Assembly: GCA_016858145.1 (NCBI GenBank)
Contig: JAEHOE010000061.1
Span: forward strand, 558,001 to 622,000
Source of the DNA: Edaphochlamys debaryana
Taxonomy: Eukaryota; Chlorophyta; Chlorophyceae; Chlamydomonadales
Reading direction: 5' to 3'
DNA: 64,000 nt
Shown here: piece by piece, positions 1 through 64,000 of the stretch
Layout: every line of letters begins with the position of its first letter
How positions within the stretch are numbered: the first letter of the stretch is position 1
Translations under genes and position numbers: made by a program
Notes under the pieces: generated by a model
Databases searched by the model: none
Told to the model about the DNA's origin: nothing
Seen by the model: only the letters and a program-made list of their open reading frames with translations

Positions 1-3000
1 GCGTGTACGGCTTGCGACGTGGGTGAGCCGGGCCCGCAATCCCTGGCGGAGGTAGGGCCGAGCAGCCTCGCACAGCTTCCGATCGCGCCCCTGGAGCCAT
101 GTGTTCCCTCGTCACGTGCGCCATCGTCGTACGCCAGCGCGTACGACGCTGGGCCGGCGTCATCAGGCGCCTCGTCGACCACGGTCAACGCAGTCAACGC
201 GGGAGCTGGCGGTCAACCGTTGAACGCGTTGACCGCTGACCAGATCGCGCAACAGCTGCAGGCCCGAGCTCAGGCCGAGGCCCAGGCCCAGGCCCAGGCT
301 CAGGACGCGGGCCCTTGGGTGGATGCGATGGAGGTATCAGAGGCGGGATCGGGTCCGGGGCAGGGCCGGGTTGTCAGCTCGGGGGTGGGGTCCTCTCAAC
401 CCGCCCACGCCATCTCAGCGAGCCAGGCCCAGGCCCAGGCCCCGTCGGGCTATGAACGGGCGCCATCGCAGGCGGAGGGCCCCGCGCAAGCCGCAACCGC
501 CGGCCAGTCGCTGCCCTCGCCGCCCGTCTCCGGCACGCCCTCACCCGAGGACCCACCCCAGTCCCAGCCCCGGTCTCATCCCCAGTCCTCACCCCAGCCG
601 TCACCTGCCGCGCCGCCGTCATTGCAGCCATCCGCCCAATCCCCGCGGGGGGCCCCGCCGCCGCCGCCGCCGCCGCCGACCGACCAGCGCTGGCCGCCGC
701 CCGTCGTAACGCACACGTCAGCACCGGGCTTAGTCACCCGATCGCTGCCGGCGGCCGACGGGGCGCTGTTCCTGTCCACGTCAGCGCCCCGGCGGTTGGA
801 GGTGACTCATGGCGAGTGGAGCATGCGGCGGTTCACGGTCGTACGGCAGCTGTACAAGGTGAGGGGGGTGCCCGTACTGGAGCGGGCATGGGTTTGGGCG
901 GTTGGGCAGTTGGTTGGCGGTGTCTGTTGATCGTTCTATCGACGCACTGCACCCAACGTTCCGTGCCTCGCCCTTCCCCGCCGCTCCCAGGGATACGCGA
1001 GCCGCGTTTACAAGGTAAGGGCCCTGGGCGGAGGGCTGCGGTTTGCGATCCAGGATCCGGGATCGGGGATCTGGGTCCGGAGGGGCCCGCATGGGTCCGC
1101 GGTGGCGCTGGGCCCAGGGCTGCGGCAGTTGCGCTGCGGCCGAAGCGGCATTCAACCGCCGCCATCTGGGCTGAGCCCGAGGGACTTGCTTTGCGCGGTG
1201 CCGCAAGAAGCCCCCTGTCCTCCTGTCACTATCCATACACCAGACCTTCCCTGCCCATCCCCTCCCTTCTTTCGCCCCTACCGCGCCTCCCCCAGCCCAC
1301 GTCCCCTTCCCTTCCCCTCCCCTCCCTCCCCTCTTTCCTCGTCAAGCCGCTCAAATGTATAAAACCCTCTTTCGCCTTCCCCACCCCCACCCCACCCTAA
1401 ACCCAGGCCGTCTACACCCGCTGCCCCAGCGCCGAGGTGGTCCTCAAGGCGTACGACATGGCCGCGCTGTCCAGCTTCCTGCGGCACCAGGTACGGCATG
1501 TACGACGTGTACGGCGCGCACGGGGCACGTGGTCACGTGTAGCCAGCATGGCCCCTGGACGCCCCCTCCCGCGGTCTGCTCATTCCTCACGCCTGCAGCG
1601 CCCATGCGTTGCGAAGCACACGCGGCTTGCCCCACCCTCCCCCTGCGGCTTGTCCCACCACCGCCTCTCCCCCTTCAACCCCCAGATCCTGCGCGAGCTG
1701 GACATCCACTCGCACCCATAGCCCCACGCGTCACGAAACACACACGTTCTCGCACCCCCCGTCTTGCTCACACCCCACCCCGGCCCCCCGCCCCCAGATC
1801 CTGCGCGAGCTGGACATTCACTCCCGCCTCAATCACCCGGGCGTGGTGCACCTCGCCGCCGCCTTCAAGGTACGGACACGTGTACCGAAATTGAATCAAT
1901 TCTTGAAGCCGTTGTCGGTACGGGCATGATCCCATGTGGATCTACAGGCAACCGAAGCAAGTGTTGTATGCCGTCTTCTAGCCCCGTCCTAACGCCTGCC
2001 ACCTACCAACTGCCAACTGCCTAACCAACCGCCGTTACCGTACCTGCCCGCCCCTTCTTTCACCCGCACCTGTCAGGACGGCAGCCTGCTCGTCCTGGTG
2101 GAGGAGTACGTAAGGGGCGGATCGCTGGATCACGTACGGCGGCGCATGGGCGGGCGCATGGCCGAGCCCTACGCCGTACGGCTCGTACTGGCGCCGCTGC
2201 TTCAGGTGCGGCGGCCGGGGTCGGGGGGGCAGTCAGGGGGGGTTGGGTTGGGGGGGATTGGAGGGGCGGGTTCGGGGGGCGGGTTGGGTGGGCGCCGGCT
2301 GGGATGACTACCGGTGCCCCGCTGATGCAGCTGGGCGGTCCCGGGTCAGTTGCAGCGTGCACGGTGCACGGGTGGAGGGTACCAGATTCACCGAACCACG
2401 GAGATACTTACAGCCAATGTTACCGACCCCTCTGTCCCCCTGCCCTCCCCACAGACGCTGGTGTACCTCCACGGCAAGGGCATCGTGCACCGAGACATCA
2501 AGCCGGTGGGGCCGTGGGGGGGAGAAGGAGAGGACGGGAAGCGAGAAAGGAGGACACCTCGCTTACGAGGGAAGGGGGAGGGGGAGGGGGAGCGGGCGTG
2601 TCCTCGGCCGGTGGGGCCATGGGGGACCTAGCGGCGAGGGCACGGATTCGTGCTCCTGACTGCAGAGGACGTCGATGTTGCGGGTGCTGGAGGTGGGGGC
2701 GTGTCGCCTGCTGAGGGCAGCGGGTTGGGGGCGCTGTTAGAGCAGCCGATCAGGCCAGGGTCGCAAGGGGAAGGCGAGGGTGCCTGTGGACGGGTGCCTG
2801 TGGACGTGTTGGTGCATGGGGTGTATGGGGTGCATGGGGTGCATGGGGGCCCTGCTTCTGACGGACAAGGACTGGAGGCCGCCTCCCGACACACCTTGAC
2901 GCGTACCCCAAGGGTTAAAAACACACACGCTTTCCCCCTCTAACCCCCCTCCGTTCCCCCCCCTTCAGGAGAACCTTCTCCTCACCGAGGACTGGGAGCT

Positions 3001-7200: not shown

Positions 7201-7580
7201 CTGGGCGTCCCTAGGCCCCTTGCTGACCTGCCTGTCCCTTCAAACCCACGGCCCCCGCCGTAGCAGCCGAGTACCGCCCTAGTCTATTTATTGCCCACAC
7301 CAACATGATTTATTGACCGCTTGTCGACCGCCCGCATCAATCCCTGCCAACAACCCTGGAGCAGCAAAGCAACGATCAAGTGATGTCCACCGCCACAAAT
7401 CAAGACGAGTTAGGGTTCCCACAGTCCCACGAAACTTTGTCCGCAAACTGCGCCGATGCCTCGCGCTTTTTATTTCGCAACCACCTGAACAAGTGCAAAT
7501 CAAATCAATCCCTGAGCCAAGTACAATTAGTCCCTGTGCCTCCCCTCCCTGCCAAAACCCGCGCTTTCAACGTCAGCGGC
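4251..7580. other. Convergent intergenic region: 3' ends of genes 1 and 2
   Basis: These 3.3 kb lie between the stop of the kinase (+) and the stop of the orphan membrane gene (-). They probably hold both 3' UTRs. I could build no spliced or conserved coding sequence. A TTACA at 6192-6196 (TGTAA on the minus strand, the usual green-algal polyadenylation word) could end gene 2, though about 1.4 kb past its stop. Short duplications are present: a 20-bp word at 5587 and 5618, GGAAGC units near 6000, and repeats near 7013 and 7193. Confidence 0.6.
6450..6591. repeat. Direct repeat, about 60 bp, two diverged copies
   Basis: 6450-6518 and 6534-6591 share GAAGC(A/G)CGTTGCTT, then CAACCACTGCATA, then CACTACCGTA and CACATGC in the same order, at an offset of 84. 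It lies in non-coding DNA. Confidence 0.8.
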
Positions 7581-9727: not shown

Positions 9728-9759
<32 letters not shown>

Positions 9760-16249: not shown

Positions 16250-18813
16250 TCACTTTAACAACAGCTCGTACGCGATGCCCGCCGCCGCCATGAGTGAGAC
16301 GCCCACCACCAGGGGATTAGTCACCAGCCGCATCAGGCTTGGGCCGCCGCCTGCGCAAAGGTTCAGGGAGGAGGGCGTGCAGAGGAGGAGGTGGGCTCAA
16401 GGGCTGGAGGGAGTGGGAGGGGGAAATGGGCTGGAGGAGACTAAGAGAGAGAGAGAGGTACACAGGCTGAGACTCAAGGGAGAAGAGTGGAGGGAGGAGA
16501 CCCTCGGCTGCTGCCCTTCCCTCCAGAACATCGTGGGAGCAATCTTTGGCAAAGCCGCTTCCAGCAGCCCCCCGCTGCACAGCAAGCCATTCCTCCGCCG
16601 CCCTCTAGGGCCAGCCCCTTGCACGCACACCTTTCCACCCCGTCCACCTGCCCTCCCCCCTTGGACCCAGCCGAACCCAACCAGCCACACACAAGCACTG
16701 CACCCACACCGCACCTGCCCGGCCTCCGCCCTCCGCGGCCCCATCCTCCAGGTCTTCAGCGTCGAGCTGCACCTTCCTGGGGGGGGATGGAAGCGGGGCA
16801 GCGGGCAGCGCACTTGAATGAGGTAGGGGAGGGCACAAGGGCAGGCAGATCGGCAAGGCGAAAAGCGAGCTCAAGCGCAGTTCATCCCTGCAGAAGTGCG
16901 CGTCAAAGTGATGCGTGCCCGGTCAGCTCCCGCTGGCGCCCTTGCCCCCGCTCCCCAGCCCCACCCTCCCCGCTGCCATCCTGCAGCCGCCCCCCCACCC
17001 CCCTCCTCACCGGCCATACGGACCCGGCTTGGGCTCCCCTAGCGTCGTGGTGACTCCTGAGGGGATGCGGCAGATGCAGATTCAGATCCGGATAACATGT
17101 TGGGCACTCGCGCAAATGGCATCTGCCGATCCCAAAGGAACACCCCGCCTCCCGTCCCTCCCTCGTGCCACGGTACACCCATAGCACGTTCCCCGCTCCC
17201 TCACCTGCTCACTGCTCACTCCCTGTTTCTCTCTCCACATCTACCGCACCCTCCCAAGGCCTCCACCTGTCCGCTTGCACCGACAGTAGATGAGCCCCCC
17301 CCCTGTCCCCCTGCCTCAGCCATCTCTCTGCCTCCTTGCCCAGACCACCCCCATCCTCCTCCCACTCCCTCTCCCTACCCCCTGAGCCCCACCTGTCCGC
17401 TTGCACCAGTAATAGATGAGACCCGTCTTCTTGTCCACCACCTGATGGGGGGTGGGGCGTGAGGAGGGAGAGAGGAGAGCGCGAGGGTTGAGGTCTATAA
17501 GGATGGGGGGTGGAGGGGTTGAGGGCTAAGGGTCCTCTGTCGACGACAGGGTTCAGGGGTTCGAAGGGATGCTGGAGGAGGCGTTGTGATCTGGGGGACC
17601 TGTGTGTGCATGACTGTCAGGGGCTGGGAACAGGCGCCCTCCCCCTCCGCTCCCCGCCCCCTCCCCCCCCTGAAGTCCCCTTCCCTTGCCCACGGCGGCC
17701 AGACCCCCACCTCGATCCACGTGTCCGGTTTGGGCGCTCCGGGCACAGTCGTCTCTCCTGCAAGCGGAGGGGATGGAGCGGTGAACCGAGGGGAACTAGC
17801 TGGCTGTGGACCAACCGCAGCCCCCGGCCTTGCCCCTGCCCGGGCCCCAGAGGGGCCCGGACGGAGCCCACACGGGCCCCAGGTCTTACACAGGCCGTGT
17901 CACACGAGCCCTGAACACAGGCCATGTCTCGCTCGGGGTCCTCACCCCATGATGAACACGAAAGCCCCCTTGGCTGCAAGATACGGCACCGGTAGTTGGC
18001 CCTGTGGCCTCCACGCCCACGGAACCACCCCAGAGTCTTGGCCCCGCGGCTGCCGAGACAGACCTGGCCTTCACCCGGTATCCCCAGGGAGCTGTGCTCC
18101 GGGTGGGAGGGTATGGTATAGCCCGGCCCGCCCGTCTCCAACACACCAGATCGCAGCTTGCGCAAGGCTGGCCAGACCACGACAGATCCGAGTCCGTCAA
18201 GCTGCCACCCACGGTCCACGTTGACTTTGACGTGGTCAAACCCGAGCTTGCGGTCGGCAGTCAACGTTGACTGGATCGCCCCAACGTTGACCAGGTCTGC
18301 AAGTGCCTCTCCTCCCACCCCAGCCCCCCGCCACCGGGGGCCCCTGCCCCCGGCCAACGTTGCTCACCCGTCAGCACGCTGCGCCAGCGCACGCCCCCGT
18401 CACCGTCCTTGACCTCCTCCCACTCGTCCTCGAGCGACTTGTTCGGCTTGTTCAGGGCTGCGGGCGAGGGGGGAGTCAATCCAACCATGAGGCAGCAGCA
18501 GCAGCAGCGGCATCCCGAGGATGAGGTTGGACCAACGTCGCTACCCTTCGCGCAGCCCCGGGCCCTAGCGGCTCCCCCTTGAGGCCACAAAGCAAAGGAA
18601 GGCGAACTTGGGCTCAGCCTCCGGTCGCGCACCTGGCCCCTTGAGCCATCCCGGCAGCGACGCCTCCGAGCCGCTGGTGCTGGGGGCATCGTCATCTGAA
18701 GCATCTGACGGTTTGGTCGCAAAGCGTGCTATACTGCAGGCCGGCGAGAGAGCTGCTAGAAGCGCGGATGGCCGATGTGCCAGTACCCGGCGGGCGTGCT
18801 GGGCTAGGGACAT
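16250..18813 (-). CDS. Organelle-targeted tandem WW-like protein with C-terminal membrane helix, 191 aa
   Basis: The exons are 18813-18633, 18457-18368, 17757-17711, 17441-17393, 17056-17011, 16776-16715 and 16350-16250 (TGA). The N-terminus, MSLAQHARRVLAHRPSALL, is Arg/Ala-rich without acidic residues, as in mitochondrial presequences. Two WW-like motifs follow: DEWEEVKDGDGG...VLTGETTVPGAPKP and DTWIEVVDKKTGLIYYWCKR...GEPKP. Both keep the first Trp and a GxPKP end but lack the usual second Trp. An acidic linker (LDAEDLEDG) leads to one helix, LVTNPLVVGVSLMAAAGIAY, four residues from the stop region, so the protein may be tail-anchored in an organelle membrane. WW motifs bind proline-rich ligands; no partner is evident. 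The gene is divergent from the NTF2-like gene. Confidence 0.8.
17264..17294 (-). repeat. Partial copy of WW exon 4 donor edge
   Basis: CACCTGTCCGCTTGCACC here repeats 17390-17420 at an offset of 126. On the minus strand it carries the end of exon 4 (LIY..CKRT) plus a GTGGAG donor. It lies downstream of the true exon, inside the following intron. Confidence 0.85.
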
Positions 18814-19007: not shown

Positions 19008-20645
19008 ATGCGGGCTTCCACGCTCCGCCCACCCCGGAGCATCGCGACCCCCACATTCACTCGCACGCTGAGAACAACCCAGCCCTTCTCATTCACAAGC
19101 CTGCGCGGGCTGCTAGGAACTGGTGGCGACTCGGGCGCACGCCTGGCCGGGGGTCTCAGGTGGGGACTGGGGCGACGCGGGCGCGGTGAGGGGGCCACTG
19201 CCACGCCACCCTCCCAGCCAAGCCGAACTCCACGCACCCTCTCCGCTGAGCAGGACGACCCGCCAGAATCCACGCCAGACCCAGCCCCCCTCTCTGCCCC
19301 CCCTCCATTTCCCCCCCACAGTACAAACAGCTCCCAAAGCTCACGAGCCCCTCGCGCCGGCAGCCCCACCACCACCACCGCCACGGCAGCCGCTACCGGA
19401 GGGGCGGGGGCGCGGACCCCCCCGCCCCTACCCCCGCCCCCGCCCCCACCTCAGCACGCCGCAGCGCTGCGGGCCGCGGAGGACTACATGCTGCTGTCCC
19501 GAACGGAGACGCTAGAGCAGGTGCGAGCCTGCGGGTCCGCTAAGACACGTGAGGGCCGGGCAGGACAGGGCCGGGCTCAAAGGCAGGGTGAAGCGACGTC
19601 TTTCACCAGGGTAGCGCCACTCTCGATCGGAAACGCGAGAGCAGGTGCGTGCCTGCAGGTCCGCTGATAATCCTTAGGGCCAGGGCCGATGTGCCACGCA
19701 AGCCCCTCTGGCCAGGGCCAGGGTCTCGGCACCCCTCGGGGGCAGGGTGAAGCGCCGCCTTAAACCAGGGTTGCGCCGCTCTTCAACAGCCCAACGGCCC
19801 ACGCCTGAGCCCGCCTGACCCACGCGGCCCTGTCAGCGCCATGCTCGCGCCACCTATCCCCAGTTCCCCACTCCTTGTTGTTCTCGGGCCCCCAGGGCCC
19901 CGAGCATGGGCCCCGACCCTGCCCCCTACCGGTATGCTGACCATTTCCAACCCTGCCGTTCCCTGCCCCCGCCCAGGTGCTCCCCGCTGTCGCCAGCGTC
20001 CTACTGCTGACCCCCCCCGCCCCCCCTCCAATGCCCTGCTGCGCTTAACAACACCTTGTAACATCACGCCACGTCAGTACCCGAACCCCTACCCTAACCC
20101 GAGACCCCTGCCGCTCCCGCTTCCGCGCCCCCCACCCCCCCGGCCCCCAGGTGTTTCCGCTGCTTGCCCCCGATGCGAGCTACCGCTCCGATGCGCTGGG
20201 CAGCTCCTGGGAGGGGCGGGAGGCCATCCGCGGCATGATGGAGGGCTTCTTCGCCAAGTGAGTGCCGTACGCCGTACACCGCTGTACATGTGGATGCCGT
20301 ACTTACCAAGCGGGGCGAGCGTTGCTTACCACAATCGCGCAGGCCGCGCACCCGGACCATTGCCATTACCGCCATTGCCGCCATCATCACCTCCCGTCTC
20401 CCCTCAGCACCGTTAGCATTCCATGCTCGTTCCCAGCTTTCCAGGTTTGTGACCTCGTTGCGTTGCGTACCACCTCCCGTGCCCCCGCACCCTGGCACGT
20501 GGCAGGCTCCCGGACGTGCGGTGGGAGGTGCGGTCGCTGGCGGTGGAGCCAAGCAGCGCCCCCCAGGGGGTGCAGGGGGTGCAGGGGGTGCGGGTGGCGG
20601 TGGAGTTCACGCGGTGAGCGGCCTCGGGGAGGGGGGGGGGGGGGG

Positions 20646-20728
<83 letters not shown>

Positions 20729-21357
20729 GGGGGGGGGGGGGGGGGGGGGGGGGGGTGTTTGAAGCTGATAAGCGGGAGAGCGTCGAATGGTTAGTGGGAT
20801 TGCCGGAGAAGGTACATACCGCCACAGTGTCCATGATAGGTTCGGGTGTCCCGGGGGAGGGGGGGAGGGGGGGAGGGGGGGAGGGGCACGCTGACGGGCG
20901 GGCGCTGTCGGGGGAGGGCGGGGGAGGGCACACGGTGAGGGGCCCAGCAGGGGTTGGAGGCGGAGGGCGGGGGCAGGGGAAAGGGACAGGGCAGGGCAGG
21001 GTGGGGGCGAGAGGCTTGTCTGGGCTGGTGGCTCCAGGGTGCAGGGCCGAGGGAGCCAGTGTGTTGGGGAGGCCTGGGGTTGTGGCTTCGGCGGCTGCTG
21101 GTGGGCCAAGCTTGCAGATGGCCAGGTGTCAGGGACTAGCAACCAGGCCAAACAGAGCAGGCAGCTTAGCACCAGGGCATGGTCAGGCCCTTTCCGCCGC
21201 CCCACCCTCTTGACCCCTCCCTCCCCCCCCTGACAGGTACTGGACCAACGAGGAAGGGCAGGCGGTGGTGGCGACCGGGCGGGAGTGGATCTACGTGGAT
21301 CCTGCCGGCGGACCGGGATCCATCCAGCACGTCCACGTGGCCAAGCTGGATCCGTAA
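19008..21357 (+). CDS. NTF2/SnoaL-like domain protein with organelle presequence, 282 aa
   Basis: The exons are 19008-19520, 20151-20257, 20506-20613 and 21237-21357 (TAA). The chosen start gives MRASTLRPPRSIATPTFTRT, an Arg/Ser/Thr-rich transit-type N-terminus. About 110 Ser/Pro/Thr-rich residues follow. The C-terminal ~120 residues read as one NTF2-like fold: helix AALRAAEDYMLLSRTETLEQ, then APDASYRSDALG, SWEGREAIRGMMEGFF, PDVRWEVRSLAVEP, RVAVEFTRYW, GQAVVATGREWIYV and IQHVHVAKLDP. GREAI followed by alternating strands is typical of SnoaL/NTF2-like proteins. Some of these are enzymes and others scaffolds, so no reaction can be assigned. A GVQGVQGV triplet shows a 9-bp repeat inside the domain. 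Intron 3 contains a huge poly-G tract. Confidence 0.8.
19511..19790 (+). repeat. Tandem duplication spanning the exon 1 donor
   Basis: AGAGCAGGTGCG(A/T)GCCTGC at 19514 recurs at 19638, and GGCAGGGTGAAGCG at 19582 recurs at 19741. The second copy has about 34 extra bases. The first copy is the exon end plus the true donor. The second is a decoy donor in the intron. Confidence 0.8.
20631..20755 (+). repeat. Poly-G tract in intron 3, 125 bp
   Basis: Runs of 17, 79 and 27 G are separated by single A at 20648 and 20728. It lies 18 bases after the donor of intron 3 of the NTF2-like gene. Shorter G-rich repeats continue near 20855-20885. The exact length may be an assembly estimate. Confidence 0.9.
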
Positions 21358-22335: not shown

Positions 22336-25300
22336 TCAGTCCTGCCACTCGTCACCGCTGCTCTTGCCGCCCGCACCCCCCGCGCGCGCCCGCCTGCCCC
22401 CGGCTGCGGCCGCCCCCGGTCCCCCCAGCCTGCCCCGCGCCCAGGCCAGAAGCCGCGGCGCCGCGAAGGCCCCCACGGCAATGGCCAGGACCAAGGACAG
22501 GAAGCACATGGCCAGACCTGGGGGACGGAGGGAGGAAAGGGGGAGGCGGGTGTAGTCCAAGCGATAGAGAGAACAGGTGGCGGACGTACAGTGCTGTACA
22601 GTGCTGTACGAATATGCCAGACACAGGCACACGGTCAGAGAGGCTTGGAGTAGAGCTACGGGAGGCTCTGTGCTGAGGATGGTCAGGGGCAGAAAGCAAG
22701 CAGTGGTCCAAGATGGTGTGCAATTGCGCAAGCGATTGTCCAACCGCTATCCCACCGATGGCGTGCAGCAGGATCTGCTGCTCCATGTGTGGCGCCAACC
22801 GCCGTACGGCATCTCGCTCAAGAATGGCGGGGTCCGCGGTGTGCCTGCAGGTACGGCAGTGTGCATGTAGCACACGAATCCACTCACGCATCCGTCCAGC
22901 GCTCAGGGTACGCGCGTGCCGCATGGGGGCATGGAGCTGACCGACCCCCCCGGCACTTTACGCCTCAGCCCACCTACCCCTACCCCTACCCCTGCCCAAG
23001 CCCATGCCCCTGCCCCTGGAGCCCCGCACCTGACGCTGATGCTGGTGGCGTTGCGGGCGGATGCGGGCAGGTAGACGCGGCCGTGCACCTGCGGGGGAGG
23101 GGCAGGGTTGGTTGCGGGGATCCTGATCCGGGTCTCAACCGTCAGGAAAAGACCGAGAGCTGCGACGCAGAGGGTGGGCAGTAAACTTGAAGAACGGTTT
23201 CCTCCGGACCCCTGCCCTTCCCCGCCCCTGGACCACGGGGGGAAGCGGGAGCGAGTCGTTGAGCAGCAGTCAGGGCCGGAACACACATGTTCTCATCAGA
23301 ACCAGCGAGCTGGTAATCAGGCGTGTAATCAGGGGCGCCCAGACTCCGCCCCCTCGTCCAGCCGCTTCCACGCCACCGCCTCCCATCACGCAAACCCCAG
23401 GACCGACGCGTCACAAAACACACACGCTTTACCCCCCATACCCCCGCTCCCCACCCACCCACCGTGCTGGCCCCCTCGTCCAGCCGCTTCCACGCCACCG
23501 CCTCCCACCGGCTGTCGGGGCTGCAGCCGGGGCCCCCGCCCGGCTCCTGGGAGAGGCGGTACTGTCCCGTCAGAGGGTCCCGCGCGACCTGGGGCATTCG
23601 GTGGGGAAAGCGCGAGGGGGGCAACAGAGGGCCAAGGACTGCAGATTGGGAGAGCGAGATCGTCCGGGACTGTCAGAGGTACCAGTAACGCGACTAGGAA
23701 AAGACCCTATCGTTCGTGCCCCCTTCATGCTTCCACTCGCTCCGAGCCCATTGCCAGGTTTGGGGCGCCGTGATGGAACCATCAAACCATGCCCCCAGCT
23801 CCCAGCCCTGCTCCCCACCTTGACGCACAGCGCCCAGAAGTACTCGTGTACGAGGCACGTGGAGTCGGGCTGCCACACGCCGTACTGGCCGTACCGGCAG
23901 CGCGCCTCGCCGCCTGCGGGCAGCGGCCCGCGGGGAAGGGGATGTCCGAGATTCAACACTCGTATGCATGTATGCACGTGGACGCATTAGCCAGACTGCT
24001 TCCAGTTTGCCGAGTGTCATGCACGGTGTGGGGACGTGGGGTCACTCTCATGAGCGCGAAAACTGGGGTCGCAGATCAGCTAGGGGTCAGAGCCCGGCGG
24101 AGCTGGGGGGTGCCGCGGAACGGCAGCCCCGCTGGGGCCGACCCGGGCCCGTCCCAGCAGCCCCAGCTCGCCTGCGGCCACGGTGCGGTGGCGGCTGAAG
24201 GCGAGCGGCCCCAGCTCTATCTGCGTGAGGGTGCCCGTGGCATCCTCGGCCAAGAGGGTGGCGGACCGCCCGCGCCGCAGCTCGGGCACGATCTGGTGTC
24301 AGACGGGCGCATGGATGGGTGGATGGGAAGGAGGGGGGGGTGTTATAATGGGATAGTCCGAACAGAGGATCGACAGGAGTGGGGGTGTGTTGTGTGCGAA
24401 GGGGCCTAGGAAGGCAGACGGGCGCATGGATGGGTGGAGGGTTGAGCGGACGGGGGATCAGAGGGAGCCATGCGGACGGCATGGGGTGACGGGCATGGGC
24501 GGGGGGGGGGGCGAGGGAGAGCGAAAGGGGTGGGTTGGGCAGCAAAGCGGTGGCAGGGAAAGAGGTGTGCTGTGTGCGGTGGGGCCCCATAGGACTGCAG
24601 TCACGAAGGCAGGTATGAGGTGCCCGGCCAACGCAGCGCGGCCCGCTCACCGGCGTCCACAGCTTGCTATGCTTGACCGTCTCCTTGTCCATAAAGGGCA
24701 CGTCCCTGCATAGAGTTGGTTGCAGGTTACGTAGTTGCACGTCTGTATGGAACCAAGGGTCTGAACACGGCAGCAACCCCGCTCGGGACCTCAAGCCCCT
24801 GCCCTGTGGGGCCTGCTATCGCACGCCCAGTCGTTGTCGCCGTTCCCCACCCCGCCACCCGCCCACCCGATCTTCCCCGTCCTCACCCGGCGTGGGCCCC
24901 TAGCAAAGCCTCCAGGACTCCCTCGGCCCTGAGGAGGGGATTAGGAGTACGGTAAGGGGCAGAAGCTGAACGCAGTCTAGGAAGGGGGCGGATCACAGGT
25001 GCGCGGCAAGGGTGAGCAGTCCGGGGCACACGGTGAGTCCAGCTGGGGATGTTCGGAGCACAGCCGCTCACCTGAACTCCACGAGGCTTGACTGCGCGAT
25101 CTGGCGTGTACGGGCGTTCGATCCGGGTCGTACGGCATCCTCCTCACCCTCGTACTCTGACCCCGCCGCCGCCTTGGGCTCTGACCTGCGAGGGACCGCA
25201 GCCACACGGTCACCCATTTGCCGTACACCAACCGTACGGCCGCCGGCATAGTTTCGGTACGTCGGTCAAGAGCTCAGCTAGCAGTAACCGCTCTGGTTGC

Positions 25301-27457
25301 CCCATGACGGTTGTTGAAGAGCCACATGAAGTCAAAGATTGCGCCGCCGCAAACTCACGTGGATTCGTACTCCCGTGCCGAGCGCTGCTGGGCCGGGTAG
25401 AGCGGCTTGACGGCCCGCTTGGACGCAGTCACCTAAGGCCGCAGGGGGGGGAGGGGCAGGGGGGTTAAGGCCATGTGCAAACGGGTCTGGCCCACCAGCC
25501 GGCCGGACAGTGGGTCGGTTCCTGTTGCTGGGTGCTGGCATACGCTAGTCAAGTCGAGCCGTGATGCCGGCGGAGAGCCCATGCGGCCCTTGCTGTTTCC
25601 TGCCCCATCCCCAAGCTCGGTCGCGGTTACCTTGGCGCGCAGGGGTATGGGCGCCGCCAGCCCCTCCACGCGGAGGGACCAGGAGGTGGACACGAAGGAC
25701 GCGCGGTGCTGGTCCCACCCTTGCAGGTCTGCAGGGCGAGGCGGGCAGGCGGTGTGAGTCTCGCCAGGGTCTCGCAAGAGGTGGCTTCATGAGCCTGCAA
25801 GGCTGCCGTACACAACGCGTGCACCATTCCGACGTCGTGCACGCAAGTGGCGGCCCCACACGGTCAGGATGGAAAGGCCCATACTACGGAACAAAGCGGG
25901 TAGTACGGCAGTCGGCAGTGCGGTTACTCACATGTGTAGTACTCGTCCTGAATACGGCGGTGCAGGGGGGCGTAGTGGTTTCCGCGGACCAGGTACGCTC
26001 CTGAAGTGGGTTGGGTGCGGGCGCAGAGTAAAAGGCACGCCCGTGTGAATGCGAGCAGGCCGACTGCTCGAGTCGCTCATTCAGTTGGGTTTGGCTTGAC
26101 TTGATTCGGTTTTCGGTCGGCCCCATGTCTGTTACCTGGCCAGACCCTAGGTTGGCTTCGGATTGTTTCGGTCCCTGTCGATCGCGAGGTCTGTCACCCT
26201 GCCAGAACCCACATGCCATGACCTCCTGCCCCCCATAACCCTTCATAACCCTCCATAACCCTTCATAACCCGCACAGGCAGCGCCCCCCCCCCCCCCCCC
26301 CCTCGCCCCCTGCTCGGGCCCCGATGTGGGTTGGGTCCAACTCCCCACCAGGCTCGGCACCCTGCCCCCCCGCGCACTGGCGACCTCACCCCCTGCCAAC
26401 CAGGCCCATGTCTGTTACCCCATGCACCATGGCAGCCTCAAGCCCTCAGCGCCTCACCCCCTGCCACGACGGACAGGGCCAGGCCCACTTGCCTTGCACC
26501 CCTGTCTCAAACCCCATGTCACCTCGCCAGACCCTACACCCTACACCCTACTAGCTGCAAATGATAGCTGCTGTTGCTGAGGTCTACTCATCCTTTGGCT
26601 CGTTTGGGCCTCACAGCCATGAAGCTGTGTAACAATCATCATACCCCCTACCCTGTACCCCATGCCCCAACGCCTCACCCCCTGCCAGCAGGGCCAGAGC
26701 CAGGCCCAGAAGCGCCAATGCCCGCACCGGCGTCAGTTCCTGCGGGTTGGGGCCAGGCAGGGGCTCGCCTGATGCACAGCTGTGCGACTGCCGTGTAGCC
26801 CTTGGGTCCAGGCAGTGGAAAGACGGATGCGCCTTGGGAGTGCACTGTGTGGTGGCCCACCCCACCCACCCCACCCGGCGGGAACAGGGGCCGGGCCGGG
26901 TGCAAACCAATGGGGAACTCCAAACAGCGCATCGCCCAGCCGTGCTCCAGTCGCGGGCTGATCTAAGGATTCTGGCACAGTCTGGCTGGGTCTGGCGGAG
27001 ACTGCAGGAGGCGGAGACTGCAGGAGGCATCGCCCTCGTCTGCCCCATCGCCCTTGTCGCACCCCCAAGCCTTGCTCCTTACACCGCTGATTCAAGGACG
27101 CTGAGACGGCATGAGGTATCGTCGTCGTCCCCCGCCCCACGGCTGAGTCCCACCTGGGATGGGCCGGCCACGCCCGCCGGCGTCGGCATACCAGAGCCCC
27201 AGCTGGAGTGGTGGCCATGAGCCTGCAGGAGCATGCAGCAGCGTGTCGCGGGCCGGTAGACATGGGATTACAGCCAGAGTCGGTTCCGGCTTCGTCGGGC
27301 GTGGGGATGGATGGGGATTCCCCAAACCCGCAACACCCCCACGAGGCTCCGAGAGGCTCGCCTTGACGGGGCGTCCAGCTGCATCTCGCTTTACTGGCCG
27401 CGGCTGTGTGTCCACGAAGATTGTTGCGGAATTCACGTCAACTGGTCGCTGCCGCAT
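22336..27457 (-). CDS. Two-helix membrane protein of unknown family, 435 aa
   Basis: There are fourteen exons: 27457-27362, 27222-27154, 26739-26679, 26000-25932, 25728-25631, 25432-25359, 25185-25072, 24705-24651, 24292-24172, 23913-23819, 23588-23463, 23088-23030, 22844-22756 and 22517-22336 (TGA). All phases agree. One membrane helix lies at about residues 59-80 (PVRALALLGLALALLAGG) and one at about 377-399 (GLAMCFLSLVLAIAVGAF). Between them is a ~300-residue, ordered, non-repetitive domain with aromatic-rich segments such as GNHYAPLHRRIQDEYYTYLQ, SLVEFRDVPFMDKETV, GQYGVWQPDSTCLVHEYFW and WEAVAWKRLDEGAST. This looks like a lumenal or periplasm-side domain held by two helices. The tail is Gly/Ala/Arg-rich. 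I do not recognise the family. Two introns are GC-AG. The first exon (27457-27362) is the least certain. Confidence 0.78.
23348..23385 (-). repeat. Partial copy of an exon's 3' edge (gene 5)
   Basis: The 38 bases match 23469-23506 (offset 121) with a single visible difference, which is synonymous (GCC/GCG). The copied part encodes WEAVAWKRLDEGA. It sits downstream of the true exon in the next intron. Confidence 0.85.
23914..24171 (-). other. GC-AG intron in gene 5
   Basis: The donor GCCGCAG|GCGAGC and acceptor CCCGCAG|GCGGCG share CGCAGGCG. No GT donor in the correct phase exists before the in-frame stop, and the GC donor gives TVAAG|GEARCRYG. The gene's first intron (27223-27361, AAG|GCGAGC) appears to be a third case. 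Confidence 0.6.
26381..26490 (-). repeat. Two decayed copies of the TM1 exon's 3' edge
   Basis: CCTCACCCCCTGCCA at 26384 and again at 26452 repeats the end and donor of the exon at 26679-26739 (CCTCACCCCCTGCCAGCAGG at 26673). The second copy also keeps GGGCCAGGCCCA. The phrase CCATGTCTGTTACC is likewise doubled at 26123 and 26406, so this intron has been duplicated more than once. Confidence 0.7.
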
Positions 27458-43346: not shown

Positions 43347-43460
43347 TAAGCCCGTCTTGGGCCCCAACTTAAGCCCGGCTTGGGCCCCAGCTTAGGCCCA
43401 TCTTGGGCCCTAACTTAGGCCCGTCGTGGGCCCCAACGTAGGCCCGGCTGGGGCCCAACG
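43347..43460. repeat. 23-bp x 5 tandem hairpin repeat
   Basis: Units start at 43347, 43370, 43393, 43416 and 43439 (last one 22 bp), typified by TAAGCCCGTCTTGGGCCCCA. In every unit GCCC and GGGC are kept and the five bases between vary (GTCTT, GGCTT, ATCTT, GTCGT, GGCTG). Each unit can therefore form a GCCC-loop-GGGC hairpin. The array begins 31 bases after the stop codon of gene 7, in its 3' UTR. Confidence 0.9.
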
Positions 43461-43491
43461 AGAGCGCATGGGCGCCGTAAGCAAGCACGCC

Positions 43492-56406: not shown

Positions 56407-59400
56407 TCAGTCTGCCTTGGGGTGAGGCTCCCGAGCCGATGGGCCGCCGCCGCCGCCGCCGCCAACCGCCGCGCCCGACAGTTGGGACTTGATGGCGCGC
56501 CGTACGTCCCGCAGCGTACCGCTCAGCTGGCCGCCAAGCGCCGCCGCCGAGGGCGCCGCCGCCGCAGCCGCCGCCGCGCCGCCGGCGGCTGCCGTACTGA
56601 GCGTCCGTACGACGCTGCTGACGTGGCGTTGCAGCCCGCCCGACTGCAGGCCCGCTGCGACGGACTGGGAGGCGTGGCCCAGGCTGCGTGCGGCTCGGAG
56701 GAGGCCTTTTTGGAGGGCCGCCCCAGCGCTCTTGCTCCGCCTCATCCGGCCCTGGTCGCTCCCCGCGCCAACGCCGCCGCCGCCACTGATGGATGAGTCA
56801 TCCATCGCGTGGCCGTACGTCATGTCGTACTCGTCATCGGCGGCGCCCATCTCATCGTCGTCGTCGCCATCGAAGTCATCGCCGTCACACGCCGCGTGTC
56901 CGGCCGCCCCGGCGCCGTACACGGTGCCGTACATGCCGCCGCCGGCCGCGGCGGCGGACGACAGTGCCCGGCCCGCGCCGTTGGCCGCCTGCCGGCCAAC
57001 CACCAGTGCCTCCCGTACCAGCCTTACCGCGAAGTCGGCGCTGGCCCGCCGGAGCTGGTTAGCCAACTGCCGCCCGCCGGCGCCGTCGCGGCGGGCGAGA
57101 TGTCGGGCGGGCGCCGCCAGGATCGTGGCTACGGCAGATCCCACGCGGACGACGGCCTGGACTGGGGCGAGGCCCGTTATGAACTTGTGGGCCTGTGTGG
57201 AGAGGAGGGGACGCGATGCAGGCAAGGGTGTAAGCGAGCAGCGGGTCGGGACATGACGTCACGGGAGGCGAATTGAGATTTGCGTAATTTGCGACATTTG
57301 CGACAGCATGCATGAGCCAAGGGCAACTGGAGGGTAGAGGTCTGGCACCGCACGAGCAAAGTACAGGGGCACCAGTACCTGCTGACTTCTCTCCGCACCG
57401 CAATCCCCGACCCCGGCTAACCTCGCCAAGGACGGCGCTCCCTCCTGTCCCCTCCCCCAGCCCCCCCCCCCCCCCCGTGCCGTACGCGACGCCCCGCACC
57501 GTACCTGCGTACGGGCGATGTCCTGCAGCCACTCCCGCAGTACGGCGGCGCCCAGTCCGTCCCAGCCTGCCACCCCCGCCAGCCTCAGCTCCTTGGCCGC
57601 CAGCTCCACCCCCCCCAGGGGCACGAGGTTGATCAGCTCGGAGAGGCGACCCTCGGCCAGAGCCGCGATGTCCACACGGCGGGGCCTGTGGGGGGGGGGG
57701 GGGAAGGGGGAAGGCAAGAGGCAAGATGGGGGGAGACAGGGGAAGGTTAAGAGGCAGAGGGGCACCAAGTTGATCAGTTCCGAGAGGCGACCCTCGGCCA
57801 GAGCCGCGATGTCGACGCGGCGGGGCCTGTGAGGGGGGGGGGGTAGAGGGGGAGTTTTTGTTGATGGGCAGAGGGGGAGGAGGCAAGACTGGGGGGGGAG
57901 AGGGGGTTAAGAGGCAGCTGGGCACCAGGTTGATCAGCTCGGAGAGACGGCCCTCGACGAGGGCAGCGATATCACCACCGTGCAGCCTGCGAATGAGTTG
58001 GGAGGAAGCCATGTGTGGAGCTACAGGGAGCTGACGTGGGCGAGGCAAGTCGGGGGGAGCGGCCCCAAGAGGCGCAGGTAGGAGCTGGGAGACTGGGGCG
58101 CCGAGTCAGGGATCATGCGTGCCACGCTTCGCCCCCCACCCCACCTGTCCTCCAGCACAACCGTGAAGCCCCGCCCCCCCCCTCCCCCGCCGCACCCCCT
58201 AAGCACACACGCAAAACACACACGTCCTGCCCTCCCTCCCCCAGCCCTTACCCGCCCGCCCCCACCCCACCTGTAGTCCAGCATGACCGTGAAGCCCCCC
58301 ACCGCCGCCCGCTGGAAGAAGGGCGGGGGCAGCGGCTCGCAGCCGCCCAGCTCGGACAGAGCGGCCTGGGGTGGGGTGGGGGGGAGGTTGGGTGGGGCGA
58401 GGATGGTGGAGGGATGGAAGGGAGGGGGGTGAGCGATGGGGGTGGGGGGCAAAGAGGAAGGGTTGCAAAACGTGGAAGGCTGTGGTGCGAGGCGCGTGGG
58501 CGTCTGGGAAGGGCTAGGCCGAGTGCGTGTCGAGGGACCACCCCGGTCGACAACTCAGCAACACCCCGGCTGTCTGATTAGCCCCCCCCCGCCCCCCCGC
58601 CCCCCGAACGCCCCGCAGCCCCGCCATCCCACCTGCATGGCTGACAGTACGGCAGCTGCCGGCCGCAGCGCCGCCGACACAGCACTGCCGTACCATGACA
58701 GGTACGACATGACGTCCTGGTTTAGCTTGAGCCTGCGGATGTGCGGAGGTACGGCGGTATGGAGGTGGGGTGGCGCCTAATTGTCTATTCCCCAAAACCC
58801 AGATCCGACCCGCGACCCTTGAAGCCCCCACCTCTGCTCCCTTGTGCGCAAACAGGGCTAGCGGGTCCCGCTGAGGCCCAATCTCTCCCTGTACACTCTT
58901 TTCCAAACACAGCCGGCGTCCTGCAACCCCTATCATCCCTTGGCTTACACTTAACACACTGGCACCGGGAGATCGTGCACTCACCCCCAGCAACCCCTCA
59001 CCCCTCACCTCAGGGGCAGAAGCTGCACCGACAGACGAAACTCCTCATCCCTCGGGTCGGTGGCGGCGGGGTTGGGCCGCACCGCCGTCAAAGCTACCGC
59101 CACGAGAGGCGCGCGGGAGTCCCGGGGCCGTCCCCGCACGGAGCGGTACCCAAGCACCCGCACCCAGCCGCCGCCGCCGCCGCCGCTGCCCCCGCCGCCG
59201 CCGCCGCCGCGGCCGACGGCGCCCAGGCCCAGGCCGGCGGCGGCGGCGGCGGCCGCGGCGGAGGCTGCCGAGGCGGCGGCGGCCCGCTGCCGAGCGTCGA
59301 GGGCGCAGTCCCGAATCTGTGAGCGGTGAAGTGAGGTGAGGGGGGGGGTCAGGGTCACGTTTGAAGCGCAGCGTGGACACGCGCGGATCCCGGGAGGGGT

Positions 59401-62400
59401 GTTGGGGGCTCGGTGGTGCACGGCCATCCGAAAGACGTGCGTCGCACGGAGCCCCAGACATGGCCCAAACGGGCTCCGGCTCAAGCACGTATTTTAGCCC
59501 CCTCGCCTGCCCCCCTTCGTCCTCCCGCCTGGCCCCCCTCCCCCCTCCCACCTCCAGGTCGTGTACGGTGAGCCGCATGCCAGGTGCCCAACTCCCTCCT
59601 CCCCTAAACCCCTCCGCCCTTTCCCCTCCGCCCTTTCCCCTCCGCCCCCCTGCCCCTCCTCTCAGGACCCCTCTGCCCCTCCCCCCCCACCTCCAGGTCG
59701 TGCACCGTCAGCCTCATGTGCCTCGCCAGGTGCCCCCCGGGGCCGTAGCTCTCCATGGCCAGACCCAGGCCCTCCACCACCAGCTCCACACGGCCCTCCT
59801 GAGGGGGGCGGGGGTGGAGGCAAAGGGGAGGGGGTGGAGGCAAAGGGGGGAGTGAGATGAGGGGAGGGGTGAGACTGGGGGGAAAGGGGGGGGGAGATGA
59901 GGTGAGGTGAGGTGGTGACACCAGCTCCACGCGAACGGTACGGCACGGTATGGTACGGCAGCCGCGATAAGCTGAGTTTGCTCACCTGGTGGGAGGCCGC
60001 CGCGCCGTCGGCTCCGCCCGCTCCCGCCGCCGCGCCGCCCGCTGCCGAGGTGGTGGAGGTGGGGCCGCTGGCGGGTCCCGCGGCGTTGGGGGCTCCGGGC
60101 GCCGAGGGGCGCGTGGTGGTGTGCATGACCCAGATGCCTGGTGGTGGTGGTGGTGGTGGTCGTTAAAGGGGGGCAGGGGGGAAAGAAGGGACGGGGCCAA
60201 CGTCGGTCAGTCGGTCAGTCGGTTGCGACCGCGACAGGAGCAACGCGCAAACGAAGGTCCGCTGAAATGCCCGAGCGTAAGCCCCCACCTTCGTGACCCA
60301 TCCCTTCCCTACGGCTGGGAGGTTTTTACACCTCTCCATTGGTCAGTGACAGGTGCCTCCCCATCCCCCCGACTCAGTAGGTCTCAACACCCCCCCCCCC
60401 CCCACCTGACAGGTCCTTGAACGTAATCCGCAGGAGCGCCGGCGGCTGATCGACGCCCCCAACCGCCCCGCCGCCGCCGCCACCGCCGCCGCCGCCAGCT
60501 CCGGCGGCGCCCGCCTCTGCGCCCGGCGGCGGCGGGCCCATGGCGGCGGCCGCCCCCGAGCCGTCATCGTCCGACTTGCGGGGGACACGGACGTAGTTCT
60601 CCTGAGGGCGAGGGAATGTGGGATGAGGGTGTTGCGTACTGATACATCGGCAGACCCCACCGGCTGTACACGAACACGTGCGCGGTACCTGCAGCCCTCC
60701 CCGGCGTGCTAGACAGACGACCGTTATCCGCCGTACCTGCAGCTTCCACGTGGGTGCCGTACTCGCCGTCGTAACGGCCGAGGACGAAGCAACCGACGCC
60801 ACGGAGGCGGGCGCCGCCGGCCGCCGCTCCGCGGCCCGCCCACCGGCCGCCGCCGTAGACGCGGCGCCGCCGCGGCCGGCGGCGGTTGGAACCAAGTGTG
60901 ATGTCGAGGCGGGCGGCGGCACGTCCGACAGGGCGAGCAGATCGTCAATGTCCTCCGGCTCCTCAGATTCCGCTGGCTCTTCGTCTTCCGCGTCGTCCTC
61001 TTCCGTACGGCCTGCTGACTCAGCGCCGCCCGAGCGCAGCTGGCCAGCCCTTGGGCCCACCATGGGCCCCGTAGCAACGGCGGCCGCCGCCAGGAGGGCG
61101 GCGGCGGCGGTCGGGCGGCGGTCGGGCCCCTCGTCGGGTCCGTACCACGTGCCTACGGCAGTACGGCAACCGGATGGAATGTGGGTGGTACGTTGGGTCA
61201 CTTGCGTGGCAGCACGTGCAACCCATCCTAGCTGCTGCTGTAGTAGTCATCTCTGCCCAACCGTTCCGCCTTTGGCGTGCATGCGGGCTATATCCAACCA
61301 GCAACCCGTCCTTGCTGTTGAGACTCGTGTCGCGTCCGGCACCCGCGTATCCGTCCACATCCTGCAAACGCCGGTCCTGCCTCGGCCCCTCCCGCTGCAA
61401 TCCACACCCTTGAATCCTCACCCTTCCAACCCCCACCCCCGCCTCCAACACACAAACCCCTCACCCTCCATCTCCGCGTCTCCGTTGCGCCAACGCGCCG
61501 CCGCCTCGCGCGCTCCATAGGACGGGTGCTGAGGGGAAGGGAGGGGTTGGGGCACGGGTGAGGGGTTGGGTGAGTGTGAGGGTGGTGGGTGGGTGCTGCG
61601 CGAGGAGGTGGGGGGTCGGGGGCCGGGCAGCGCGCAGGTGCGACGCGCACGGGCGGTACGGCGGTACGGACACACCTGTACGAGTACGGCAAGATCTTCG
61701 TCGTACTCGCCCCGGTGGTTGACCGGGAAGAAGTCGTCGATGAGGATGAGGCCGGGGGGGGAGGAGCCGGGGGGGGCGGGGGCCTCGGGGGCGGCGTACC
61801 TGGGGGGAATTAGGGGGGGAGTTAGGGGAGCGAGCAAGGTAAGCGAGGGCCCAGGCGATGTCGTACACGTGCGGACAGTATCCGGCTAGCGCTAGCAAGC
61901 AATGGATAGCACTACTCACCAGCCACCGCCCTGCGCCCCAATCATGCTAGACGCATACAGCGCCGAGCCGCCGCCGCCACCCGCCGTCGCCGCCGCCGCC
62001 GGATGCGGCCGGCCCGCCAGGGCCTGCGACGGCGGCGGCGGCGGCGGCGGCGTGCGCCGGAATGCGTTCTCCTCCACCTCCTCCAGCAGCAGCGCCGTCA
62101 GCAGGGTGCCGCCGGCGTCGCCGCCAGCCTCCGACGCCGCCACCGTCGACGCGGCGGCGCCGCCAGGGCCGCCGCCGCCGCCGGCGGTGCCGTCGGAGGC
62201 TGCCTCCCAGTAGGAGTCGACGCGGGAGCAGCTCGAGGGCCTGCCGCCGCCGCCGTCGCGCCGCGGCGGCAGGCCGGCGGCGGCGGCGGCCGCAGCCACT
62301 GCCGCCGCCTGGCGGGCCGTCATCAGCGTCCCCGTCTGCGGGCGGGTGGGAAAACGACGGGACGGGGCTCGGGGGGGGGGGATCGCAGCGTATTGGAGGC

Positions 62401-64000
62401 CCCCACACACTGGGCCATGACGAAACAGGCTCGGGCTCAGCGCTCTGACGACCGCCGTACGCCAAACCGCACGAAGAACGACACCGCTCTGCACTCTAGC
62501 GGCAACCGTGCTCAGCATTGCACTGAAGAAGGCACTGCCGTACACCGTGGTGGTACGCTGCCGTACACTGCCGTACCTGCATGGCGAAATGCGCCAGCAG
62601 GGTGGCCGACTCAACGGTCAACATGCCCAGCAGGTGCTGGTTCGTGATCTCCACGTCCACCTGCGTGCCGTACAGATGCCGTACGCAGGATCAGGGCGGG
62701 AGGGTTAAGCTTCGGCAAGCAAGATGGAGTGAGTAAAACGCTCTCGCCAACGTAGGAGGACTCCAAGTCAGCCCATCCCGCCCGGCCCAACCAAGCCCCC
62801 GTACCGCACTGCACCTCTGTCGACCTCAAGCGCCCCAAACCCGAACACCAAGCGCACAAGGAACCCCCGAGCACGAGCCTCTCCCCTTCTTGCTACCACC
62901 GTACTCCCCTTGCTGTGTGGCCACCCCCCAACAGGGGCCCGAACCGAACCCGCCCCCTCCCCCACCCCCCCACCCCCGCTCAGCAACAAACACCCCCCCA
63001 CCCCCCACCTGCGTGTGGAAGGGCGTCCAGGGGCCCAAGCACGCGCCCGACACGCCCCGACACGCCGGAACCCAAACCCGCCCCTTATACCCCTGCTACC
63101 CCCACCCCCCCACACCCCACCTGCGTGTGGAAGGGCGCCTGCTCCGACACGGCCGCCGCGCCCCGCGCCGCCGCCGCCAGCGCCGCATCCGAGGGGGGCA
63201 CGGGCGCGGGGCCGCAGGCGGGGCCGCGGCGGGGGATGTGGCGCTTCTTGGCAACCACACGGATGTGGGCCTCCTGCGGGGGCGGGGGCGAGATGGGATA
63301 GGCAGAAGGTGAGAAGTAGGGGAAGCGCGGGTGGAGCTTGGGTAAGGAACAGTGAGGCAGGTGGGCTCTGACGGCGGGGTGAGGGGGGCATGCGTTTCCG
63401 CCATCGCCTCCGCCTGGAGGAACCGTTGAAGCAAACCTTCTTCTTTCCTTCTCCAACCGCCCCCCTTCCCCTTCGAAACTCCGAACTCCGTCCTCCCTTG
63501 CCGCCCTCTCTTCCCCTCCTCCCCCACGATCACACCGGCAGCACCCTCACCGTCTCCCGCGCCTCGTCTTTCCCCTTCAACCACCCCCCTCCTCCCTTGC
63601 CCCCCCCCCCCTCAGGCCCCTCCTGTCCCCTCCTCCCCCCCAGTCGCACCTGGAGCACACGGTGGTATCCCGCCGCCGCCAGGACGGGGCCCCGCAGGGC
63701 CCTCGGGTCCGCAGCGGCCCACCCCGGGCCCCGCGCGTCCGCCGCCGCCAGATGAAGAGTCAGACTGTGCAGCGAGACCACCTGCGGCGGGCCCGGCGGC
63801 GGCACCGCTGGCGTCGCCGCCGCCTCGTCCGTCGCGCCGCCACAATCGTCGGCGGTTGGGGCGGTTGGCGGTTGAGGTGGTGGCGGCGGCGGCGGGCCCA
63901 GCGGCAGGCCGAAGTGTACGGCCTCGACGAGCAGGGCCAGCGCCACGGGGCTCACGTTAGGCGGCGGCGGTTGTGCGGCGCAGGCTGCCGCACCGTGCGG
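56407..64000 (-). CDS. ATG2: Autophagy-related protein 2, C-terminal part (5' partial)
   Basis: The visible exons are 64000-63650 (partial), 63273-63121, 62660-62577, 62335-61920, 61799-61676, 61528-61465, 61152-60737, 60601-60406, 60137-59986, 59798-59691, 59316-59009, 58732-58633, 58365-58271, 57685-57505 and 57192-56407 (TGA), about 1177 residues. ATG2 is a rod-shaped lipid-transfer protein that feeds the growing autophagosome from the ER with ATG9 and WIPI/ATG18. The C-terminal ATG2 signature is clear: GGFTVMLDYR, RRVDIAALAEGRLSELINLV, GGVELAAKELRLAGVAGWDG, REWLQDIARTQ and ITGLAPVQAVVRVGSAVATI, followed by RRASADFAVRLVREALVVG. Upstream, PPGLILIDDFFPVNHRGEYD and GHLARHMRLTVHDLE fit the beta-rich groove. 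The N-terminal chorein domain lies beyond the window. Ala/Gly-rich inserts and an acidic Asp/Glu run (~DDFDGDDDDEMG) near the end are lineage additions. Several introns carry copies of exon edges. Confidence 0.88.
57752..57992 (-). repeat. Two coding-like copies of an ATG2 exon's 5' edge
   Basis: The true exon begins at 57685. Copies of its first ~70 bases, with their acceptor, begin at 57826 and 57986 (offsets 141 and 160). The nearer copy still encodes DIAALAEGRLSELINLVP exactly, with only synonymous changes. The farther copy reads DIAALVEGRLSELINLVP after a diverged start (LHGG). Both run into C-rich intron sequence after the copied part. Confidence 0.9.
58139..58172 (-). repeat. Copy of an ATG2 exon's donor edge
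   Basis: CCACCTGTCCTCCAGCACAA here corresponds to CCACCTGTAGTCCAGCATGA at 58267 (offset 126). The copy encodes GFTVVLED plus a GTGGGG donor, against the true GFTVMLDY. It lies downstream of the true exon (58365-58271). Confidence 0.8.
59547..59580 (-). repeat. Copy of an ATG2 exon's donor edge, synonymous divergence only
   Basis: The copy encodes MRLTVHDLE plus a GTGGGA donor, exactly the end of the exon at 59798-59691 (offset 139). The visible codon differences are AGG/CGG, CTG/CTC, ACG/ACC and GTG/GTA, all silent. Confidence 0.85.
63000..63029 (-). repeat. Copy of an ATG2 exon's donor edge
   Basis: CACCTGCGTGTGGAAGGGCG at 63006 repeats 63118 (offset 112), the end of exon 63273-63121 (PFHTQ) with its GTGGGG donor. 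Confidence 0.8.

Follow-up and report, generated by a model that had tools for sequence, protein, structure and literature searches.

The 64-kb stretch of the Edaphochlamys debaryana genome analysed here (assembly GCA_016858145.1, contig JAEHOE010000061.1, positions 558,001 to 622,000 of the forward strand; hereafter the window) contains introns in which the edge of an adjoining exon occurs in one or more extra copies, often together with its splice site. Seven gene models overlap the window, all of them ab initio. Pfam matches support four assignments among them: a protein kinase at the left end, a SnoaL-like protein, ATG2, and a second kinase whose top matches among solved structures are GCN2 kinases. 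An Rfam scan of the window at gathering thresholds returned no match.

A further 290 kb from this genome (contigs C61, C1, C2, C10 and C25) was analysed along with the window, giving a sample of 354 kb, and genome-wide matches were counted in the 141.9-Mb assembly of 502 contigs, of which the window's own measures 703 kb. GC content is ca. 67% across the sampled stretches; the accessible part of the published genome description gives 67.1%, with a median intron of 198 bp and 9.3 introns per gene (PMC8226300). Trained on the sample, a two-strand hidden Markov gene finder returned 471 introns with a median of 215 bp, a CAG/GTGAG donor and a C-rich acceptor, and its final decoding yielded 54 gene models and 482 introns.

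The copies found in the window are listed in Table 1. A preliminary description of this DNA had named 13 places with copies of adjacent exon edges, spread over at least 12 introns and six of eight genes. All 13 carry such copies, that at 26381 being weak; they occupy 12 introns, intron 57686-58270 holding 57826/57986 at one end and 58139 at the other, and indeed belong to six genes, although seven and not eight are modelled in the window. The copies lie on the same strand as the edges they resemble and, as had also been described, are of mixed age, from near-identical to decayed. The statement that each of them carries its AG or GT is corrected for the copy at 23348, which lacks a donor. Splice dinucleotides are retained in 15 of the 21 events of the sample whose copies reach the border. 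Neither 26381, 35826, 35868, 37315 nor 63000 was listed by the ungapped direct-repeat scan, the copies at these places being visible in the sequence.

Table 1. Exon-edge copies, intervening segments and motif occurrences in the window
Feature	Position	Strand	Remarks
Copy of acceptor and first 26 nt of exon 1798-1869 (kinase gene)	1679..1711	+	Real border 1791-1823, offset 112; 25/26 exon nt identical, AG kept
Copy of donor and tail of exon 17393-17441	17263..17298	-	Real border 17389-17424, offset 126
Donor-type copy, border of exon 19455-19520	19624..19665	+	Real border 19500-19541, offset 124
Identical 38-bp copy of tail of exon 23463-23588	23348..23385	-	Offset 122; ends 7 nt short of donor
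Weak copy, donor border of exon 26679-26739	26384..26410	-	17 exon nt aligned, 3 differences
Second copy, donor border of exon 26679-26739	26450..26487	-	Real border 26671-26708, offset 221
Outer copy, acceptor border of exon 30163-30274	29948..29966	+	Offset 211
Inner copy, acceptor border of exon 30163-30274	30055..30093	+	Real border 30159-30197, offset 104
Array, 109-bp unit x 3.4 (GCN2-like kinase)	31255..31629	+	Four 48-bp acceptor edges (CAG + 45 nt), three 61-bp C-rich segments between them
Decayed copy, start of exon 35987-36176	35820..35850	+	Offset 166; intron z 6.0
Second copy (GCAG/ATCGTGCGGGGCC), acceptor border of exon 35987-36176	35867..35883	+	Offset 116; 13 exon bases, no difference
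Decayed, gapped copy, acceptor border of exon 37473-37579	37318..37375	+	Offset 148; 43/55 identical; intron z 8.2
ATG2: copy of start of exon 57505-57685	57745..57830	-	Direct repeat with 57619; 5 codons changed, all synonymous; acceptor score at 97th percentile
ATG2: third copy, start of exon 57505-57685	57905..57986	-	Direct repeat 57619/57745/57905
ATG2: donor-type copy, exon 58271-58365	58133..58172	-	Real border 58259-58298, offset 126
ATG2: donor-type copy, exon 59691-59798	59542..59579	-	Direct repeat 59542/59681, offset 139
ATG2: donor-type copy, exon 63121-63273	63000..63036	-	Offset 112; intron z 5.9
Segment between the 23348 copies, 84 bp	23386..23469	-	Holds motif at 23408-23426, antisense to gene
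Exact core motif GCGTCACGAAACACACACG between copies	1728..1746	+	51 nt before real acceptor (kinase gene)
Degenerate motif relative, 4 mismatches	1606-1624		Upstream of the 1728 motif
Motif-like sequence, 5 mismatches	58206-58224		Between the ATG2 copies of the exon 58271-58365 border

In the edge test, 45 nt of the adjoining exon edges were aligned to each intron and scored against introns of similar length from other genes. Removal of low-complexity edges (score >=1.3) reduced the set from 940 to 904 edges and those matching their own intron at z>=4 from 31 to 26, of which 13 reached z>=6. Dinucleotide-shuffled introns gave a mean of 3.4 such edges (range 0-7 in 20 sets), so that about 22 of the 26 matches are genuine and the excess over shuffled introns, which the preliminary description had proposed to check, is borne out in this sample. 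No edge out of 940 matched at z>=4 when reverse-complemented, and the far ends of the same exons did so in 4 of 648 cases. That the matches reflect chance or low-complexity similarity, or an artefact of assembly, is very improbable. Introns are G-rich at their start and C-rich at their end, some weak matches are of low complexity and ca. 3.4 of the 26 are expected anyway, but the strong cases lie in complex sequence, with 38/38 and 40/40 identical positions, and the differing ages and independent changes of the copies would be unlike read errors or misassembly.

The window is a hot spot for exon-edge copies, and was chosen for this trait: 11 of its 82 introns contain an event versus 13 of 400 elsewhere, and 12 of its 155 edges versus 14 of 749 in the rest of the sample (p=4.6e-4). 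The high frequency asserted earlier is that of the window, about four times that of the other sampled stretches. A twelfth intron of the window, that of the 31255 array, is hidden from this count because the gene finder took its copies for exons; at least four copies were miscalled in this way, three in this array and one in ATG2. No exon edge of the gene at 43.5-53.0 kb reached z>=4; just past its stop-codon end lies a 23-bp minisatellite of 4.7 copies (43350-43456). An intron of the SnoaL-like gene contains a near-pure G tract of 130 bp (20626-20755).

The copies share a common anatomy. The offset between copy and border is 100-166 bp in 20 of 26 events, and the copied exon part spans 18-53 nt in 24 of them, with a median of 31.5 over all 26, no upper limit being set on the measured length. 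The two longer parts measure 63 nt, which is the whole modelled exon, and 155 nt of C-rich sequence. Exonic breakpoints lie within 60 nt of the border in 24 of 26 events and are non-random: were they uniform, the chance that all 20 events with a 100-166 bp offset stay within this limit would be ca. 2e-6, and 19 of the 20 do. Identity on the exon side is 0.90 over the first 12 nt, falls to 0.63 at 20-30 nt and reaches background past 30-40 nt, while on the intron side it is 0.45-0.51 at 6-30 nt versus 0.36-0.39 for unrelated borders, a modest excess that extends to ca. 30 nt. Most events have one or two extra copies; arrays of at least three head-to-tail units are the one at 31255-31629 and a cluster on contig C20. 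In the former, the four edges show 0 differences in all 6 pairwise comparisons, the last of them (31582-31629) being the real exon start, and the segments between the edges differ from one another and are dissimilar to the upstream flank. That acceptor-type copies lie upstream of the exon and donor-type copies downstream, as had been noted, was seen here as well; this orientation is largely a given, since only one of the copies is continuous with the remaining exon.

The predicted consequences for the introns were largely as anticipated. Introns with copies are longer (median 382 versus 207 bp), with more G at their start and more C at their end, and many copies would act as decoy splice sites, since the score exceeds the 10th percentile of real sites in 15 of 21 and is no lower than that of their own real site in seven. 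Use of the decoy would shift the reading frame in 17 of 21 events. Selection for keeping the frame was considered and rejected, the offset being divisible by 3 in only 4 of 21. Outside ATG2, 23 of 81 changed codons are synonymous versus 27% expected by neutrality (p=0.80), and because codon changes fit neutrality the copies look non-coding; most of them are decoys outside the coding sequence, and splicing presumably uses the exon-side site.

ATG2 is the exception to this neutral pattern. In the copies of the 57505-57685 exon start, the changed codons are synonymous in 14 of 15 cases (p=1.2e-7, from two comparisons that share one copy): 5/5 between the second copy and the real exon and 9/10 between the third copy and the second, with 7/9 between the third copy and the real exon, the three comparisons not being independent. 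These changes suggest a coding use of the copies, past or present, possibly as a tandem alternative exon. Inclusion of the second copy in the protein raises the Pfam total from 131.6 to 141.1 bits, a rise that does not discriminate. Functional alternative exons or splice sites maintained by selection are nevertheless improbable as the explanation of the whole set. The ATG2 substitutions, the high-scoring acceptor of one of these copies, the 59542 copy, in which 4/4 codon changes are synonymous, and the fourfold identity of the 31255 edges next to segments that differ all speak for such exons; the neutral changes and mostly frame-shifting offsets of the other events speak against them, as do the weak donor candidates that end the ATG2 copies (-0.1 and 1.3 versus a 10th percentile of 3.0) and the two non-synonymous changes of the third copy relative to the real exon. 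In the GCN2-like kinase, moreover, relatives have a single copy of the segment, and the Pfam kinase score drops from 25.1 to 16.7 bits when the three copies of the array are added.

A plain tandem duplication across the border, as initially proposed, requires the segment between the copies to resemble the flank past the far copy, and its expected decay was simulated from the exon part. Seven of 27 events were excluded, their segment or flank being too short or their ungapped exon match too poor. Among the remaining 20, tandem duplication is compatible with 16 at the 90% upper bound of divergence and with 11 at the point estimate. In six events (29280, 1491, 37855, 47015, 62661 and 19521) segment and flank are similar (p 0.003-0.012), which indicates that the intron side was duplicated as well. 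The 19624 copy, where downstream intron is repeated too (19582-19623/19741-19782; z 3.2, p 0.007), is by this comparison the clearest plain tandem duplication.

The explanation that we find somewhat more probable than its alternatives combined is recurrent local same-strand duplication across exon borders, with exchange within arrays, tolerated in introns and amounting to a variant of known processes. A stretch reaching from ca. 60-115 bp inside the intron to ca. 20-60 bp inside the exon would be duplicated locally on the same strand, plain tandem duplication across the border being sufficient for most events. From a unit of edge, segment and edge, unequal exchange between the exon-edge repeats could then produce arrays of about 105-160 bp, and would keep renewing the edge copies as the intronic parts diverge. 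Splicing would still take place at the site adjoining the remainder of the exon, and the extra edge would turn non-coding and decay; because the exon-side site would be used, the duplication would be tolerated and merely lengthen the intron. What we infer from these patterns is how the duplications arise, that repeats exchange, and that splicing takes place on the exon side.

Templated insertion during end-joining, in which filler DNA is taken from nearby, would likewise bring in short pieces copied from within ca. 100-200 bp. As far as is known, end-joining repair of this kind copies in both orientations, and the genic copies are in one: inverted local copies at z>=5 occur in none of 4608 genic tiles (versus 25 sides in intergenic tiles, over the 354 kb), no reverse-complemented edge matched in the edge test, and an exact-repeat scan found no inverted repeat in introns and one in exons. 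We accordingly regard this origin as highly unlikely.

Several results weigh against recurrent duplication at borders. Plain tandem duplication is rejected in 4 of the 20 tested events at the 90% bound and in 9 at the point estimate, and the exchange step is directly visible at no junction. The border itself is perhaps not special, because local copies are also present in introns and intergenic DNA, at a per-side rate roughly half that of exon edges. In a tile scan for same-strand copies within ca. 400 bp, exon heads have them upstream in 9 of 368 cases and downstream in none of 368, and exon tails downstream in 11 of 394 and upstream in 3 of 394; exon interiors are depleted (7 of 3626 tile sides), and introns (53 of 4066) and intergenic DNA (46 of 3986) reach 1.3% and 1.2% per side, respectively, versus 2.4-2.8% for exon edges, some of the intron matches being reciprocals of edge matches. 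Part of the pattern is therefore general local duplication. The excess of border pairs in the direct-repeat scan, from which 4 of 53 pairs in a low-complexity coding stretch of C10 were excluded, also depends on the null: p is 4e-7 with randomly placed edges and 2e-4 after doubling the visibility of border events, but 0.22 against randomly drawn intron-intron pairs. Offsets of 100-166 bp do set the border pairs apart, with 13 of 16 versus 5 of 14 intron pairs (p 0.024) and 1 of 10 intergenic pairs (p 8e-4). The tile scan also picked up an intergenic tandem array with units of ca. 185-195 bp, at ca. 394-1274 of C1:140001-150000 (L018).

The events rejected by both estimates are those with perfect exon parts, namely 31255 and 23348 in the window and 66173 and C1:15401 outside it. 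All four have the form edge-insert-edge, with an insert unlike the flank beyond the far copy, and look like either insertions between edges or duplications of some age in which exchange has renewed the edges. Insertion with a long target duplication would account for them: a segment of 60-100 bp, or a short mobile element, would enter a staggered break beside the splice site, the 29-48 bp between the nicks would be duplicated, and later exchange would generate arrays. This is a serious alternative, if an unlikely one for the set as a whole. In its favour, the 23386-23469 segment belongs to a dispersed family, the 84-nt query 23379-23462 having 23 other genome matches at 79-97% identity over up to 76/84 nt. 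Its core motif, GCGTCACRAAACACACACG, matches the genome at 469 places when up to 2 mismatches are allowed (9 for the reversed control), and among the 100 matches listed of the 469, 17 of 18 same-strand spacings below 300 bp are 107-132 bp, the other being 238 bp. Against it, no other genome match exists for the 66173 segment and a single one, of 42 bp, for that of the 1679/1791 event, so that no single element explains all events and the motif explains part of the set only. The six events that share their intron side show the opposite of an unrelated insert, and the edges copied here exceed in length the 4-12 bp repeats of Daphnia described in the accessible part of PMC4202315.

Counted with up to 4 mismatches, the motif is present in 3 of 25 copy-bearing introns of the sample versus 1 of 454 others (p=4.9e-4). 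Exact copies stand 51 nt before an acceptor in sense and 36 nt after a donor in antisense; weaker ones stand 46 and 70 nt after donors, in antisense, and farther from borders in two introns. The C20 cluster is a 119-bp array whose unit joins a coding-like edge to a G/C-rich segment with the motif. In the first kinase gene the motif is exact near the acceptor in use and has 4 mismatches in its upstream relative, hinting at a function. A paralogous kinase on contig C118 (L003:1441-1504, compared with window 1728-1797) has the motif ca. 45 nt before the equivalent acceptor, with no edge copy seen, and in a third paralog (L002) no clear motif was apparent by eye. The sense orientation near acceptors and antisense near donors raised the idea of an introner with terminal inverted repeats, which the orientation of close pairs speaks against: among the same 100 listed matches, the close opposite-strand pairs are convergent (three) and none is divergent below 400 bp. 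Facing pairs 188-215 bp apart were seen at C2:3473075/3473289, C90:436203/436418 and C134:21584/21772, a spacing that would fit the flanking of a short exon on both sides.

A further-reaching version, which we hold to be less likely still than insertion, would see in these copies a composite border satellite made of an exon edge and the adjoining intron segment. Breaks occurring at a set distance from splice sites, some of them linked to GCGTCACRAAACACACACG, would create and multiply units of ca. 120 bp, and would lengthen introns throughout the genome (crudely 5,000-6,000 introns, if the 13/400 of the other sampled stretches holds) with occasional new exons as in ATG2.

The pattern resembles several known systems, as these are presented in the accessible parts of the respective papers. 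Intron gain by tandem duplication of exon pieces that bear AGGT (PMC2891723) also involves a short tandem duplication that carries exon sequence and splice signals, but there the new intron has the size of the duplication, whereas here existing introns are lengthened and one border is copied; the two intron ends do not derive from one exon piece of unit length, given offsets of 100-166 bp in introns with a median of 382 bp. In Daphnia, repair of staggered breaks (PMC4202315) repeats terminal exon bases past an inserted segment and lengthens the intron, though its short repeats mark new introns, and those described here are mostly 18-53 bp and occur in established introns and in arrays. Direct repeats around an insert unlike the flank are found in 4 of the 20 tested events, and six events show the opposite. 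Introners (PMC9860276) likewise place dispersed similar sequences beside splice sites, comparable with the motif-bearing segments, but they constitute entire introns (some families having target duplications of 3-9 bp), as opposed to a segment of at most 84 bp at one border; near-identity across many whole introns was not seen, one segment having its 23 relatives over at most 76/84 nt and another none. Tandem repeats of Chlamydomonas and Volvox (PMC3887541) are concentrated near intron-exon junctions too, but consist of short motifs (GT/AC dinucleotides being abundant in algal introns) and not of exon-derived units. Finally, direct repeats of 4-30 bp at or near the borders of 213 introns have been read as insertion scars (PMC11782384); their members lie at opposite intron ends, whereas those found here belong to the same border and are mostly 100-166 bp apart. 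Exon-edge copies at ca. 120 bp in established introns were not found in the accessible parts of the literature on tandem-duplication intron gain, Daphnia break-repair scars, introners and algal junction repeats. Overall, the pattern is real and somewhat unusual, and is partly explained as general local duplication; the short exonic reach, the narrow offset and the motif-bearing arrays are left to explain.

To our knowledge, the cause of the long and numerous introns of volvocine algae is not settled. If the explanation favoured here is true, recurrent duplication over splice sites would make introns longer step by step without altering the protein. The copies would also serve as natural tests of how the exon-side site beats a similar decoy ca. 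120 bp away, and their decoy sites mislead gene prediction. The motif-bearing arrays, in turn, offer a handle on the mechanism that can be tested genome-wide.

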